Origin: Deltaproteobacteria bacterium
Lineage (GTDB): Bacteria; Campylobacterota_A; Desulfurellia; JAGGSF01
DNA length: 13,027 nt
Assembly (NCBI GenBank): GCA_021159235.1
Contig: JAGGSF010000059.1
Location: 1 to 13,027, forward strand
Reading direction: 5' to 3'
Each line of letters opens with the position of its first letter. The stretch's first letter is position 1. Position numbers and translations under genes: made by a program. Positions 3,240-9,783 of this stretch are shown here, piece by piece. Below the pieces are notes generated by a model, which worked only from the letters and a program-made list of their open reading frames with translations, searched no databases and was not told where the DNA came from.

Positions 3240-4886
3240 TCAATTCTCCTCGAATATTTCTTCTATGTTAAAAAATGGGAAGTTCAGTTGGGGACTGAAA
3301 AGAATATAGTACATTTTATCCTGTTTTATCTTCTTCGTTGAAGACTTTTTTATGTATGCATCCCACAGTTTTCCCCCCTGTAGAATATGTGCCTTACTGT
3401 CATAAGCTACGATTCTCGCTTTAGTGAGAAAACGAGGAAATGGGTTGCCTTCTCCAAAAGGCTGCATCCGTGCAATTTCCCTGAGCGTCTTTTTTTCAAA
3501 TACATCAAGCTTTATCTCGCAGTCCACATCTATGGAAGGGTAATATGTATCTTTTACCAGCCTCATAAATCTATCTGCAAAATCCCTTATCTTTTCTGTT
3601 TTTATGGTAAATCCCACTGCCCTTTCATGTCCTCCAAACCTATCTAAGAATGTACTCACCTCCTCCATCGCTTCAAACATATTAAATCCGTTCACACCTC
3701 TTCCCGAACCAACACTCAGAAACCCGTTTTCGGAGATGATAACCGCAGGTTTTCCATACTGGTAAGTAACCTGATTTGCCACCAGCCCGACAATACCTCT
3801 ATGCCAATGAGGAGAGGAAAGGACAATAGCCGGATCGTCTGTATTAATGTGTTTCCTTATAACCCTCAATACATTTTTCTGAATATCCTGCCGAAGTTTA
3901 TTCAATTCAATCAGCTTTCTTGCCAATCTGGCACTCTCCTCCTCATCACTTGAGGTGAGGAGTTCAACAGAAAGGGATGGCAAATCCATTCTTCCTGCGG
4001 CATTGATGTGAGGAATCAATATATGAGAAAAATACCTGTCTCCTCTAAACCGATAATCGTTACACAATTTCTTTAACATCTTTATGCCTGTACAACCGTC
4101 TCTCTCTATCTCATCCATACCGTAGATTGTCCACAATCTGTTTTCCTTGATCAGGGGCACCATATCTCCCATTGTTCCCAGAGCTACCACATCTAAATAC
4201 TTTCTCAGGTTGGGTTCTCTTGATTTGAAGTAACCTCTTTCCCTCAATTTCATTCTTAAAGCAACGATAAAACAAAACGCAATGCCCACCGCAGCCAAAT
4301 CCCTCAGGGGAAACCTATTTTCTTTTCTTTGGGGATTGATCAATATAAAATTTGCATCTTCCTTTGTAAGTTTGTGGTGATCAATCACAATAACATCCAT
4401 TCCTCTGTTCTTTGCGTATTCTATTTCTGAAAAGGCATTCGTTCCATTGTCCACTGCAATAATCAAACTACAGCCTGTTTCTTTCGCATAATCTATGGCA
4501 TTCTTATTTATACCATATCCCTCTTCCCTCTTTGGAATGTACCAGCCTGCACCTTTTCCTATCTCATTGAAAAAGTTCACAAGCAATGCAGTCCCTGACA
4601 AACCATCCACATCATAATCTCCCACCACGAGGATTCCCTCATTGTGCTCTATGGCGTGTATAGTTCGTTCTACCCCCTCCTCCATATCAGGTAACAAAAA
4701 GGGAGAAGACATGTCTCCCAATGTAGGATGAAAGAAAGACCTGACCTCCTTATAAGAAACATTCCTATTTTTCAACAGAACTTTTGTTAAAGTGCTTACA
4801 TCCAGATTGGGAAAGTCATCCTTCTCTTCATACTTACCAATGATATTTATGTTTTTGTATACACCATCAATATTTCGAAGGAGCAT
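3240..4886 (-). CDS. recJ: single-stranded-DNA-specific exonuclease RecJ
   Basis: RecJ is a 5'-to-3' ssDNA exonuclease acting in recombination and mismatch/base-excision repair. Starting at the ATG at 4886 the protein has 548 residues, near the usual length. The DHH phosphoesterase domain shows GDYDVDG (89-95), AVDNGT (144-149), IDHH (168-171) and GTMGDMVPL (237-245). A linker motif PHINAAGRM (292-300) follows; many relatives have PR here, so the His is a small variation. The DHHA1 domain has HRGIVG (362-367), GSGRG (394-398) and GGH (418-420), and an OB-like segment contains PFGEGNP (476-482). The frame stays open upstream to 4982, but that extension lies inside the Nudix-coding sequence and lacks family similarity. 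From 4886 the overlap with the upstream gene is only 20 bp. The SD is weak (TTTTGAGA), so expression may depend on coupling. Confidence 0.93.
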   Translation of the reverse strand: MLLRNIDGVYKNINIIGKYEEKDDFPNLDVSTLTKVLLKNRNVSYKEVRSFFHPTLGDMSSPFLLPDMEEGVERTIHAIEHNEGILVVGDYDVDGLSGTALLVNFFNEIGKGAGWYIPKREEGYGINKNAIDYAKETGCSLIIAVDNGTNAFSEIEYAKNRGMDVIVIDHHKLTKEDANFILINPQRKENRFPLRDLAAVGIAFCFIVALRMKLRERGYFKSREPNLRKYLDVVALGTMGDMVPLIKENRLWTIYGMDEIERDGCTGIKMLKKLCNDYRFRGDRYFSHILIPHINAAGRMDLPSLSVELLTSSDEEESARLARKLIELNKLRQDIQKNVLRVIRKHINTDDPAIVLSSPHWHRGIVGLVANQVTYQYGKPAVIISENGFLSVGSGRGVNGFNMFEAMEEVSTFLDRFGGHERAVGFTIKTEKIRDFADRFMRLVKDTYYPSIDVDCEIKLDVFEKKTLREIARMQPFGEGNPFPRFLTKARIVAYDSKAHILQGGKLWDAYIKKSSTKKIKQDKMYYILFSPQLNFPFFNIEEIFEEN

Positions 4887-5298
4887 ATTTCTCAAAATAA
4901 TCGCCAAGAATCCTTTTGTGATCAAAGGCCATCCTATCTGGAATTTCACCCCTTCTGAATATTGCAGCTTCCATAGCATCATCTCCTGCCCTTAGAATTC
5001 CTTTCCCCTTTGCCACAAACACAACAGACAGGGTATGGCTGCGTGGATCCCTATCGGGATCTGAATAAACACCTAAGATATCCTTTAACTCTACACTTAA
5101 GCCTGTCTCCTCCTTCGCTTCTCTTATTGCTGCATCTTCTGCACGCTCACCCCATCCTATAAATCCTCCTGGTATTGCCCATCCGTAAGGATAATTCCTC
5201 CTCTTTATGAGCACTATTCCCCCTTTGAATTCAGTGATAATATCTACCGTAGGGATAGGATTTTCATATACCTTAACCGGATAACTGCATCTGGGACA
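4867..5298 (-). other. Nudix hydrolase domain region of the ArgH fusion
   Basis: This part of the argH ORF encodes the C-terminal Nudix module (residues 465-607). It starts at CPRC, half of the zinc ribbon often found at the N-terminus of free-standing Nudix enzymes of this type. The catalytic helix carries all consensus Glu and Arg residues of the Nudix box, so activity on a nucleoside-diphosphate-linked substrate is expected. ADP-ribose is the likeliest substrate by family resemblance (RDPR-H and AFDH motifs); 8-oxo-dGTP and other nucleotides cannot be excluded. A stand-alone relative would begin only a few residues before CPRC, so essentially the whole enzyme is appended. Confidence 0.88.
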
Positions 5299-6690
5299 AC
5301 CGATAATCCTTCCTTCTTCCTTTATTTTTCTTTCCCTTTTAATCTCATCAATAATCTTTTTTACACCTACCCTTGCTGTGCCCCCATAAGAAGTGCGATT
5401 CTCTATAGATCTTTCAATATCAAACACACTGTATACATCCTCATCAAACAATGGAGAAAAATCCCTCAATTCATCTATTTTAAGCTCCTTTAAATGCCTT
5501 TTATTCTGCTCACAAAAAGAAACAATACCGCCTACAACCCGATGGGCATTCCTAAAAGAAAGGCCTTTCCTTACTAGATAATCAGCAAGGTCTGTAGCAA
5601 CAATGAATTCATCCATCGCCTCCCTCATTCTCTCTTTACGCAATACAATCCCCGGCAACAAAGAGTTAAAAATGTTTAAAACATCTATCGTTGTTTCCAC
5701 AGAATCAAATATGCATTCTTTGTCTTCCTGGAGGTCTCTATTGTATGAAAGCGGCAATCCCTTCATGGTTACTAAAAGTGAAATGAGATTTCCATATATT
5801 CTTCCCGTTTTCCCTCTGATGAGTTCCAATGCATCAGGATTCTTTTTCTGAGGCATCATACTGGAACCAGTGCAAAATGCATCAGGAAGTTCCAAGAAAC
5901 CAAACTCTGGAGAGGAAAATAGTATAAAATCCTCACACAATCTGGAAGTATGCATAAAAAAAATACTGCAATTGGAAAGAAATTCCACAGCGAAATCCCT
6001 GTCCGATACACTATCTATACTATTCCGAGAAAGCTTTGAAAAATTGAGTTTTTCAGCCACAAATTTCCTGTCAATAGGAAAAGATGTGCCAGCCAGTGCT
6101 CCTGAACCCAGCGGCATAACATCAATTCTATTTATGGAAGAGAGAAACCTCTCTCTATCCCTTTTGAACTTTTCGTAATAGGCTAAGATATAATGAGAAA
6201 AAAGAATAGGTTGAGCATGTTGAAGATGTGTAAATCCAGGCATAACTGCATCTATGTTCTTCTCTGCAAGCTCCAAAATCTTTTCTAAAAGCTCATCTAT
6301 TCCGTCTATAATCTCTACGCTCTTCTCCCTTAAATATAATCTCTCATCTAAAGATATCTGATCGTTCCTGCTCCTGGCGGTATGCAGCTTTGCCGCCGCA
6401 TCTCCGATCTTCTCTAAGAGTCTCTTTTCTATTGCGGTATGTATATCTTCATCCTGTATCTGAAATCTAAAATTGCCACTTTCAATCTCTTCCTTTATTT
6501 CATTCAAACCTCTAACGATCCTTTCTCCCTCTTCCTTCCCGATTATACCTTGCTTTGAAAGCATTTCAACATGAGCAATACTGCCCTCAATATCATACTT
6601 GTACAACTTCTTATCAAAACTGATGGATTGACTGAATCTCTCCATCAAATCGCTAATACCCTCTCTGAACCTGCTATCCCACATCTTCAT
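4867..6690 (-). CDS. argH: argininosuccinate lyase fused to a Nudix (ADP-ribose pyrophosphatase-like) domain
   Basis: Residues 1-455 are a complete argininosuccinate lyase, which splits argininosuccinate into arginine and fumarate in arginine synthesis. Motifs are HTARSRNDQ (103-111), HLQHAQP (155-161), the fumarase/ASL signature GSSMMPQKKNPD (275-286) with its catalytic Ser, and NRDLQEDKE (317-325). After a charged linker (about 450-463) comes a full Nudix module of about 143 residues. It has CPRC (465-468), YENPIPTVD, and a perfect Nudix box GX5EX7REXXEEXG at 509-530. The SDPDRDPRSHT and MAFDHKRIL segments resemble COG1051 ADP-ribose pyrophosphatases. The frame is continuous and both parts keep their key residues. 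No ATG, GTG or TTG lies in frame near the junction to make a separate Nudix protein. The start overlaps hom by 17 bp; the ATG at 6684 is an alternative. Confidence 0.93.
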   Translation of the reverse strand: MKMWDSRFREGISDLMERFSQSISFDKKLYKYDIEGSIAHVEMLSKQGIIGKEEGERIVRGLNEIKEEIESGNFRFQIQDEDIHTAIEKRLLEKIGDAAAKLHTARSRNDQISLDERLYLREKSVEIIDGIDELLEKILELAEKNIDAVMPGFTHLQHAQPILFSHYILAYYEKFKRDRERFLSSINRIDVMPLGSGALAGTSFPIDRKFVAEKLNFSKLSRNSIDSVSDRDFAVEFLSNCSIFFMHTSRLCEDFILFSSPEFGFLELPDAFCTGSSMMPQKKNPDALELIRGKTGRIYGNLISLLVTMKGLPLSYNRDLQEDKECIFDSVETTIDVLNIFNSLLPGIVLRKERMREAMDEFIVATDLADYLVRKGLSFRNAHRVVGGIVSFCEQNKRHLKELKIDELRDFSPLFDEDVYSVFDIERSIENRTSYGGTARVGVKKIIDEIKRERKIKEEGRIIGCPRCSYPVKVYENPIPTVDIITEFKGGIVLIKRRNYPYGWAIPGGFIGWGERAEDAAIREAKEETGLSVELKDILGVYSDPDRDPRSHTLSVVFVAKGKGILRAGDDAMEAAIFRRGEIPDRMAFDHKRILGDYFEKYAPSKY

Positions 6691-7978
6691 CTTCTTCCAC
6701 CCTTATAAGTAAGGTCTTATCTCTTACCACATCCAACTTGTCTACAATTTCCACCGCTTTTTTTACATCCTTCTCTCTTGCCCTATGCGTCATAAGGACA
6801 ACAGGTACCCACTCCTTCCCATGACCCAGCTGAATCACAGATTTTATACTGATTCCATGATTACCTAAAACATTGGCTATCTTAGCCAGAACGCCAACAC
6901 TGTCTATAACCCTGAACCTCAGGTAATATTTCATACTCAATGAATTTATATCAATTGTAGGCAGTTTTCTTATATGTTGAAAGGGAAAAGAGAGAAGAGG
7001 AATCCTCAGGTGGGTCTTATAATAAATATTTCTGGAAACATCCATTATGTCAGATACAACACTGGATGCAGTGGGAAAGCTACCCGCCCCCTGACCAATA
7101 TAGGTGGTATCCTCTACTACATCACCCTTTACCGTAATGGCATTGTATACACCATCCACTTTTGCTAAGGTATCCGTTTCCCTTATCATTGCAGGATGAA
7201 CCCGCGCATCTATCTTTCCGCCTTTCATTTTAACAATGCCCAGCAATTTTACCTTATATCCCAATCTCCTGGCGTATTCTAAATCACTGTATTCTATGCC
7301 TCTTATTCCCTCCGTATATACCTCCTGCGCGGTGAGGACTGTTCCAAAAGCCAACGATGCCAAAATTGCCGTTTTATGTGCAGAATCTATACCATCTATA
7401 TCCAGAGAAGGATCTTTCTCTGCAAACCCCAAATCCTGTGCTCTTTTCAATATTTCCTGAAAGGTCTTCCCTTCCTCCAACATACTTGTCAGGATGTAGT
7501 TCGCAGTACCGTTAACGATGCCTTTAATACTCAAGATATTGTTGGCACATAAACCTTCTTTTATCGCCCTTATGATGGGTATTCCTCCTCCAACGCTGGC
7601 CTCAAAGCCCACATCTACCTTTTTCTCATAAGCCTTTTTGAAAATTTCAAAACCGTGTGTAGAAAGCAAAGCCTTGTTTGCTGTAACTACAGAAGAACCA
7701 TTTTCAATAGCCTTTAAAATATACTCCTTTGCCTTATCTATTCCCCCTATGAGTTCTACCACAATATCTAACTTTTCTTTAAACAATTCCTCCGCATCTC
7801 TGGTTATAGTATTGGAAGGAAAAAGCCTTTCAAAAGACCTATCGTATTCAAGGCTTGCAATCTTCTTTATAAAAAGTGGAAACCCCAATCGTTTTTCTAT
7901 TATTTCCCTGTTCTTAACCAGCGTTTTAACTGTTCCAGAGCCTACCGTCCCTAAGCCAATAATACCAATACTTACCAT
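6674..7978 (-). CDS. hom: homoserine dehydrogenase with C-terminal ACT domain
   Basis: The enzyme reduces aspartate semialdehyde to homoserine, the branch point to threonine and methionine. The 434-residue length fits the monofunctional (non-ThrA) form. The N-terminal Rossmann motif is IGLGTVGSGTV (7-17). The substrate domain contains TANKALL (99-105), GGGIPII (130-136), GIVNGTANYIL (153-163) and DIDGIDSAHKTAILA (193-207) with the catalytic Lys at 202. An ACT domain (about 351-428; RFRVIDSVGVLAKIANVLG) suggests allosteric control by threonine. It is the first gene of the operon. The 5' UTR is only about 27 nt, which leaves no room for a riboswitch or attenuator. A GGGGG tract (7990-7994) 11 nt before the ATG is the best SD candidate. 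Confidence 0.96.
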   Translation of the reverse strand: MVSIGIIGLGTVGSGTVKTLVKNREIIEKRLGFPLFIKKIASLEYDRSFERLFPSNTITRDAEELFKEKLDIVVELIGGIDKAKEYILKAIENGSSVVTANKALLSTHGFEIFKKAYEKKVDVGFEASVGGGIPIIRAIKEGLCANNILSIKGIVNGTANYILTSMLEEGKTFQEILKRAQDLGFAEKDPSLDIDGIDSAHKTAILASLAFGTVLTAQEVYTEGIRGIEYSDLEYARRLGYKVKLLGIVKMKGGKIDARVHPAMIRETDTLAKVDGVYNAITVKGDVVEDTTYIGQGAGSFPTASSVVSDIMDVSRNIYYKTHLRIPLLSFPFQHIRKLPTIDINSLSMKYYLRFRVIDSVGVLAKIANVLGNHGISIKSVIQLGHGKEWVPVVLMTHRAREKDVKKAVEIVDKLDVVRDKTLLIRVEEDEDVG

Positions 7979-8352: not shown

Positions 8353-9783
8353 ATGAAAAAGTCTACAGATGTGTTTTGCATTGGTGCTTCTGCAGCAGCA
8401 GGAGCTGCAGCTATTGCAAGCCGAAGATGGTATCCAGAAAAGAAGGTTACCTGCGTAAGAAACGTAAGCGCAGCAGGAGCTGCAGCTGTTGCAAGCCGAA
8501 GATGGTATCCAGAAAAGAAGGTTACCTGCGTAAGGAATGTAAGTTATACCGTTGTTCCCTGCGGTATTCCTTACATCTATGGTTACTTAGGTGGCAGTGT
8601 GGAAAAGAATAAGATTCCTGATGAACTTCTAACGGGAAAGGGGATAGAACTGCTCACCGACAATGTGATAGATGTAGACATCAGAGGTAAGGTAGTAAAA
8701 TTAGAGGGCGGGGATGAATACTCTTATGAGAAGCTGGTTTTTGGTACCGGCTCTCATCCCTTTGTTCCTCCTATCGGCGGGTTGGACCTGAAAAATGTCT
8801 TCACAGTAAAAAAAGACCCGAAGTATTTGGAAGAAATCGGTAAAGCCCTGGAAGGTGCAAACGATGTTGTAGTCATTGGCGGCGGATTTATTGGGGTTGA
8901 AATGGCTGAACAAATCAAAATGAAAGGCATTCCCAATGTTACTATTGTAGAACTTCTACCCCATTGTCTGCTTCTGGCATGCGAAGAAGAAATGGCCATT
9001 AGGGCAGAGGAAGAATTAAGAAAACTTGGTGTAAATATCATTCTGAATGCAAGTGCCAAAAACATTGTAGGCAATGGCAAGGCAGAAGCAGTTGAACTTT
9101 CAACAGGACAAAAGGTGAAGGCAGATGTGGTTATAATAGGCATCGGTGCAGCAGCAGAGGTAGATTTAGCAGAAAAAGTTGGACTTAAAGTAGACAGAAA
9201 AATGGGTATCATCGTAGATAGATATATGAGAACCTCTGAGAAAGATGTTTTTGCCTGCGGTGACTGCGCAACAAAGCCCTCATTTATCACAGGAAATATA
9301 GTGCCCATCAGACTTGCTTCTGTTGCCTGCTCAGAAGGAATAATTGCTGGTAGTAACCTGTACAAATTAAACAGACAAACATTGGGTGCAGTGGGTGCAT
9401 TTGCCACCAAGATAGGCAACCTCTGCATCGGTGCAGCAGGTCTTTCCACAAAGATGTGCAAGGATAACGGAATAGATTACTACACAGGAGAGATTCAAGC
9501 TCCGGACAGACATCCAGGGGGATTGCCCGGCTGCACAATGAACATGAAAGCAAAACTCATATTCAGAAAGAGCGATAATAAGATCATCGGTGGACATGTA
9601 GCAGGCGGCATGGGAGCAGCAGATATGGCAAATATCATTTCTGTAGCTATTCAGAGTGGTCTAACCTCTGATGAACTGGCGGTAAGACAGATTGCCACAC
9701 ATCCCCTTCTCACCGGTTCTCCACTTGTAACCCATGTAATGTGGGCAGCAGAAGATGGTGTTCTAAACAAAAATAAACAGTAA
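8353..9783 (+). CDS. FAD-dependent pyridine nucleotide-disulfide oxidoreductase (CoA-disulfide reductase/NADH oxidase-like)
   Basis: This is a flavoprotein of the CoA-disulfide reductase/NADH oxidase group, which uses NAD(P)H and one redox Cys to reduce disulfides, polysulfides or O2; the actual substrate cannot be read from the sequence. Visible parts are the FAD-binding IGASAAAG (10-17), the active-site Cys at 70 in YTVVPCGIPYI, the NAD(P)H Rossmann motif VVIGGGFIGVE (173-183), the second FAD motif ACGDCA (301-306), and the dimerization end with HPLLTGSP (450-457). The protein has 476 residues instead of about 450, because residues 15-39 are repeated at 40-64 (see the repeat entries). A strong SD, GGGAGG (8341-8346), lies 6 nt before the ATG. 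The gene stands alone, flanked by tRNAs and followed by a hairpin. Confidence 0.9.
   Translation: MKKSTDVFCIGASAAAGAAAIASRRWYPEKKVTCVRNVSAAGAAAVASRRWYPEKKVTCVRNVSYTVVPCGIPYIYGYLGGSVEKNKIPDELLTGKGIELLTDNVIDVDIRGKVVKLEGGDEYSYEKLVFGTGSHPFVPPIGGLDLKNVFTVKKDPKYLEEIGKALEGANDVVVIGGGFIGVEMAEQIKMKGIPNVTIVELLPHCLLLACEEEMAIRAEEELRKLGVNIILNASAKNIVGNGKAEAVELSTGQKVKADVVIIGIGAAAEVDLAEKVGLKVDRKMGIIVDRYMRTSEKDVFACGDCATKPSFITGNIVPIRLASVACSEGIIAGSNLYKLNRQTLGAVGAFATKIGNLCIGAAGLSTKMCKDNGIDYYTGEIQAPDRHPGGLPGCTMNMKAKLIFRKSDNKIIGGHVAGGMGAADMANIISVAIQSGLTSDELAVRQIATHPLLTGSPLVTHVMWAAEDGVLNKNKQ
8395..8469 (+). repeat. 75-bp in-frame tandem repeat, copy 1
   Basis: This copy encodes AAGAAAIASRRWYPEKKVTC plus VRNVS (residues 15-39), the first helix and second strand of the FAD-binding Rossmann fold. 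It is directly followed by copy 2. By eye the two copies differ at four of 75 positions: one Ile/Val change and three silent third-position changes. Confidence 0.95.
8470..8544 (+). repeat. 75-bp in-frame tandem repeat, copy 2
   Basis: The second copy encodes residues 40-64 and leads straight into the conserved YTVVPCG active-site segment, just as copy 1 would in an unduplicated relative. The reading frame is preserved because the unit is 25 codons. The few differences from copy 1 show that it is not a simple assembly copy of the same bases. Confidence 0.95.

Follow-up and report, generated by a model that had tools for sequence, protein, structure and literature searches.

A fused argininosuccinate lyase-Nudix protein retained across a bacterial phylum

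The stretch of DNA analysed here (the window; positions 1 to 13,027 of contig JAGGSF010000059.1, assembly GCA_021159235.1) carries on its minus strand a gene, argH-nudix, whose single open frame joins a predicted argininosuccinate lyase (ArgH) to a complete C-terminal Nudix domain. Of 25 genomes sampled from the window's phylum, 24 carry the same fusion, across four families. It is an old trait of the whole phylum rather than a recent local event, so that the reading of an earlier note, made from the sequence alone, was wrong in scale. On balance, we regard it as probable that the product is a housekeeping two-enzyme protein, predicted to combine argininosuccinate lyase with an ADP-ribose pyrophosphatase, and that it goes back to a single old fusion.

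Gene layout and distribution of the fusion

The gene, its domains and the motifs discussed below lie as follows (window coordinates):
4867..6690, minus strand: argH-nudix fusion gene, a single open frame of 607 aa plus stop
5332..6690, minus strand: argininosuccinate lyase domain, residues 1-453 (TIGR00838; AlphaFold model against argininosuccinate lyase, ASL, structures)
5272..5331, minus strand: linker, residues 454-473, with a CxxC (CPRC) half zinc-ribbon; model confidence is low around it
5287..5298, minus strand: CPRC motif, residues 465-468, shared with certain standalone Nudix relatives, among them L181 and L192
4885..5271, minus strand: Nudix domain, residues about 474-602 (PF00293, AlphaFold block, match to 2yyh)
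6361..6384, minus strand: ArgH motif HTARSRND, residues 103-110, invariant in the fused proteins that cover it
6208..6234, minus strand: ArgH motif FTHLQHAQP, catalytic His region, residues 153-161, invariant except L/M156
5833..5868, minus strand: ArgH signature loop GSSMMPQKKNPD with the catalytic Ser, residues 275-286, assigned by motif conservation
5098..5166, minus strand: Nudix box, residues 509-531, conserved in the fused proteins
5041..5052, minus strand: RDPR motif, residues 547-550; R547, D548 and R550 invariant (24/24)
4918..4929, minus strand: AFDH motif, residues 588-591; F589, D590 and H591 invariant (24/24)

Over 4867..6690 the plus strand holds many stops. On the minus strand, residues 3-453 match the TIGR00838 (argH) profile with 617 bits, above its curated cut-off of 279.5, and three Pfam families likewise score above their curated cut-offs: Lyase_1 at residues 8-300 (E 8.4e-74), ASL_C2 at residues 362-430 (E 1.8e-26) and NUDIX (PF00293) at residues 484-595 (E 2.1e-21, 76.8 bits). 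These profile matches and the motifs listed above confirm what the earlier note had read from the letters, namely an intact ArgH and an intact Nudix domain in one 607-codon frame.

The sample of the phylum, which we infer to be the Hippea/Desulfurella lineage of thermophilic sulfur reducers, comprised 25 genomes from four families (f1-f4) and eight genera; Hippea is thermophilic (PMC3156395). The fusion is uninterrupted in 21 of its 24 carriers, in one of which (G021) the frame runs to the contig end inside the Nudix domain, and is split in the other three, by contig ends in G002 and G017 and by Ns in G013. The earlier note had proposed looking for a conserved junction in sister genomes; the same architecture is found there, and the apparent breaks are accounted for by contig ends and Ns. 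Identity to the window protein is 85% within the genus and about 50-63% elsewhere in the phylum. The sole genome without the fusion, G001, is also without hom and recJ, the genes that flank it in the window, and since hom, argH and recJ are absent together, a missing segment is the likely and simplest reading. The recurrence of the same architecture in 24 genomes excludes chance.

Outside the phylum, separate relatives of the Nudix half (45-58% identity) lie on other contigs or far from argH. In a wider sample of 386 genomes, with matches listed to about E 1e-129, none of the listed matches from the 361 out-of-phylum genomes crossed into the Nudix domain; a fusion there should have been seen, because the fused protein normally outscores ArgH-only matches. 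A Nudix domain of the fused type was also absent near argH in 86 out-of-phylum argH loci. One distant Nudix gene near such an argH (L093) was considered and set aside, as on reading it looks NudC-type. In the phylum of G051, the sole matches at E 1e-155 or better end no later than residue 460; in two very small phyla the searches used a threshold that a fusion alone could pass, without a positive control, and add little. No plasmid record matched over 80% of the query, and viral contigs yielded no relative when pattern-scanned with the Nudix sequence of the window; an alignment-based scan gave relatives, which served as alignment depth only. A literature search that covered few subscription journals returned no description of an ArgH-Nudix fusion, and a review of the Nudix clan makes no mention of argininosuccinate or lyase. 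Together, the genome and literature searches agree with the earlier note that this is not a standard architecture. The arrangement is apparently undescribed, and domain databases may already list it automatically.

Origin of the fusion and its junction

In the ArgH tree the fused sequences form one group (Shimodaira-Hasegawa-like approximate likelihood ratio test, SH-aLRT, 87), and a single clade of fused Nudix domains is not rejected by the data (approximately unbiased, AU, test, p 0.27). One fusion before the phylum diversified would be the simplest account of these sequences. Family f2 speaks against it: in the free Nudix tree three f2 sequences stand apart from the rest on long branches, and a second fusion or a domain swap in this family is possible. 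The fused proteins of f2 have also lost the CxxC motif and have a shorter linker.

The join itself is almost end to end. The standalone Nudix relative L181 begins MKCPYC, and in the fused members the last ArgH helix is followed within roughly ten residues by CPRC, a motif of this type being kept in f1, f3 and f4. With two cysteines per chain in this half zinc-ribbon, zinc binding would need a partner chain. The linker varies in length and generally has a higher ratio of nonsynonymous to synonymous substitution rates (dN/dS) than either domain. The earlier note had derived the fusion from the loss of a stop codon between neighbouring argH and nudix genes; the nearly end-to-end join keeps that route plausible, but no unfused adjacent argH/nudix pair was found in the outsiders examined. 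In the account we favour, an argH gene and a standalone nudix gene would have been joined once, nearly end to end, before the phylum diversified, and the fused Nudix domain would then have replaced the free enzyme.

Conservation, predicted structure and role of the Nudix half

The Nudix box of the window protein, GFIGWGERAEDAAIREAKEETGL, is an exact fit to GX5EX7REUXEEXGU; its G509, E515, R523, E524, E527 and E528 are invariant in all 24 fused proteins, and SDPDRDPR follows at residues 543-550 of the window protein. In the ArgH half, the GSS, MPQK and NPD elements of the signature loop are invariant wherever covered, with variation at I/M278 and K/R283; scored by position, G275-S277, P280, K282, N284 and P285 of the loop (GSSxMPxKxNP) and T154-H155 of the catalytic His region are invariant where covered. 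Close genome pairs with finite dS gave dN/dS of about 0.04-0.20 for the Nudix domain and 0.015-0.13 for ArgH and, judging from these ratios, both domains are under purifying selection. With argG present in 24/25 genomes of the phylum, ArgH should have a substrate to act on; CinA, which serves pyridine-nucleotide recycling, occurs in 25/25.

The AlphaFold model of the ArgH half matches ASL/delta-crystallin structures with template modelling scores (TMt, Foldseek) of 0.93-0.97 over about 450 columns. For the Nudix half the mean predicted local distance difference test score (pLDDT) is 88.2, with a block of 91-98 over residues about 481-600. Its best structural match is 2yyh from Aquifex aeolicus (Z 23.3, root-mean-square deviation 1.8 over 129 residues), with 3cng also among the best. 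Among structures whose ligand or role is known, the nearest are the ADP-ribose-bound Nudix domain of NrtR (3gz8, Z 19.1) and the NadM/ADP-ribose pyrophosphatase 2qjt (Z 18.0). Heat turns NAD into ADP-ribose (PMC10663502), and this breakdown product is for that reason a fitting substrate in a thermophile. From its motifs and modelled fold, the Nudix half is most likely an ADP-ribose hydrolase.

The window genome holds no Nudix domain besides the fused one, and no standalone Nudix of the fused type was found in the phylum. Where other members have a second Nudix protein, it matches the family profile weakly or looks like another subtype, and may be a putative coenzyme A-type hydrolase; two genomes of the window's genus (G001:C80, L112; G002:C77, L116) carry a further Nudix protein of 166 aa, whose zinc ribbon has four cysteines. 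No such protein was found in the window genome. The fused domain thus appears to be the only Nudix of its type in the phylum, which suggests that the sole ADP-ribose-type enzyme of these organisms is hidden inside ArgH. Another fusion of the same Nudix type was seen outside the phylum: in G051 a close relative with an N-terminal Zn-ribbon shares one 340-aa frame (L180:2299-3318, plus strand) with a cytidylyltransferase-like domain (PF01467) that looks CoaD-like.

In the protein as we picture it, the N-terminal 450 residues would act as a normal argininosuccinate lyase, releasing arginine and fumarate, and the C-terminal Nudix domain, of the RDPR/AFDH type and predicted to be catalytically competent, would split ADP-ribose arising from heat-driven or enzymatic NAD breakdown into AMP and ribose 5-phosphate. 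If the lyase tetramer is kept as in relatives, each particle would carry four independent Nudix units on short linkers, presumably without cross-talk. Fast-evolving, length-variable linkers together with intact catalytic residues favour two enzymes that share one chain. A clean-up enzyme housed in ArgH, one of the earlier note's suggestions, is accordingly the option we prefer to its regulatory one, with the hydrolytic activity itself a prediction.

The most serious challenge, still rather unlikely, keeps the same bifunctional protein and has its Nudix half act mainly on 8-oxo-dGTP, dinucleoside polyphosphates, NADH or capped RNA ends. Several observations lean this way and count against ADP-ribose. 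The nearest solved relative, 2yyh (46-47% identity), has an entry titled only as a Nudix family protein, with the chain called an 8-oxo-dGTPase domain, which keeps the ADP-ribose assignment tentative; and Nudix families of differing substrates follow close behind in structure (Z 16-18). A further point against the favoured account is that several members have Ser or Asn in place of the final Gly of the Nudix box. The quoted marker of ADP-ribose pyrophosphatases, a Pro at position 16 after the Nudix-box Gly (PMC10663502), is matched by P545 (invariant, 24/24) only if the Gly is counted, the residue otherwise standing at +15. Against such a shift of substrate, the RDPR and FDH residues are invariant and common to the nearest solved relatives, and ADP-ribose complexes are among the ligand-bound structural neighbours.

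Regulatory coupling, in which ADP-ribose (or the NAD state) bound at the Nudix half would adjust the lyase, or the lyase would adjust the hydrolase, so tying arginine synthesis to NAD turnover, is improbable. The retention of the fusion across the phylum would suit it, as would NrtR and TRPM2, where a Nudix domain senses ADP-ribose. Yet all the catalytic glutamates of the Nudix box are conserved (24/24), which fits an enzyme better than a pure sensor; the linker, the fastest-evolving part, varies in length and in f2 goes without its CxxC, which does not suggest a tight allosteric joint; and the neighbouring genes encode homoserine dehydrogenase and RecJ, with no NAD genes among them. A shade less probable again is the more specific proposal of a functional rather than incidental fusion, with the Nudix units held on the lyase tetramer, possibly in pairs that share CxxC zinc sites, and the rate of arginine synthesis set by the amount of ADP-ribose or by damage to NAD. 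If true, it would mean that a phylum has retained a covalent tie between NAD turnover and amino-acid synthesis. The earlier note's regulatory link between arginine synthesis and ADP-ribose draws no support from the evidence here.

We give little credence to cutting or separate translation of the protein into two ordinary enzymes in the cell. The linker is flexible in the models, and the CPRC codons of the window follow a stretch rich in purines, AAGGAAGAAGGAAGG; however, residues 436-488 of the window protein contain no in-frame ATG, GTG or TTG, and no linker start codon is conserved in position among the members, which makes separate translation of the Nudix half unlikely. An assembly or binning artefact is scarcely credible, and with it the idea of a frameshift was rejected: the window genome (1.127 Mb, rated 100% complete, the window being its contig C30) is fragmented into 122 contigs, but the same fusion stands in independently assembled genomes, including the single-contig G004 and G009.

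The ArgH-Nudix architecture marks a whole lineage of thermophilic sulfur reducers. It also affects annotation, such proteins being likely to be named argininosuccinate lyase only or Nudix hydrolase only. Cultured members exist, and the protein offers a simple test case of whether two unrelated housekeeping enzymes that have long stayed fused do so for the sake of regulation or by frozen chance.

Neighbouring genes and comparison with known systems

Two genes flank argH-nudix directly:
6674..7978, minus strand: hom, homoserine dehydrogenase with an ACT domain, directly upstream (profile matches)
3240..4982, minus strand: recJ, directly downstream (TIGR00644, 439 bits)

The earlier note's observation that the neighbours overlap holds: hom and argH share 17 bp, and the called recJ frame covers the 3' end of argH-nudix by 116 bp. 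Homologues mostly align from about residue 20-70 of the called RecJ, so recJ probably starts downstream of its called start. In f1, f3 and f4 the genes keep the order hom, argH-nudix, recJ; hom adjoins the fusion gene in all four families, f2 included, where recJ lies on other contigs. Both genes are conserved neighbours, and hom is no part of the mechanism. Elsewhere in the window, a CoA-disulfide-reductase-like open reading frame (8353-9783) contains a 75-bp in-frame tandem duplication (8395-8543, plus strand; 2.0 copies, 95% matches) that doubles a 25-residue stretch, AAGAAAIASRRWYPEKKVTCVRNVS, in its N-terminal FAD-binding region; it may have arisen recently or may reflect misassembly.

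Compared with stand-alone ArgH (TIGR00838, e.g. Thermus 2e9f), the protein has the full catalytic domain, all motifs and the fold, whereas stand-alone enzymes end near residue 453-460 and the fusion adds the Nudix domain. The nearest precedent on the lyase side is argH(A), an ArgH-N-acetyltransferase fusion of marine gammaproteobacteria (Moritella, Vibrio-like; PMC1382215), which likewise places a second enzyme at the ArgH C terminus and is confined to one clade. Its partner belongs to the same pathway (glutamate acetylation), while the C-terminal domain here is NUDIX, an unrelated hydrolase, with no N-acetyltransferase domain in that position; the 624-position argininosuccinate lyase model PRK12308 is matched over positions 1-460 only, below its cut-off.

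On the Nudix side, the NadM-Nudix proteins (2qjt, 2qjo) likewise combine an enzyme with a C-terminal Nudix domain of similar type, but their enzyme belongs to the NAD pathway, whereas here the partner is a lyase of arginine synthesis (Lyase_1/ASL_C2) and no nucleotidyltransferase adjoins the Nudix domain. The closest solved structure, A. aeolicus 2yyh, is by contrast stand-alone and annotated as an 8-oxo-dGTPase domain. NrtR (3gz8), in which a Nudix domain of similar fold is combined with a winged helix as an ADP-ribose sensor, is a transcription regulator, whereas the fused protein described here keeps RExxEE intact and has an enzyme as its partner.

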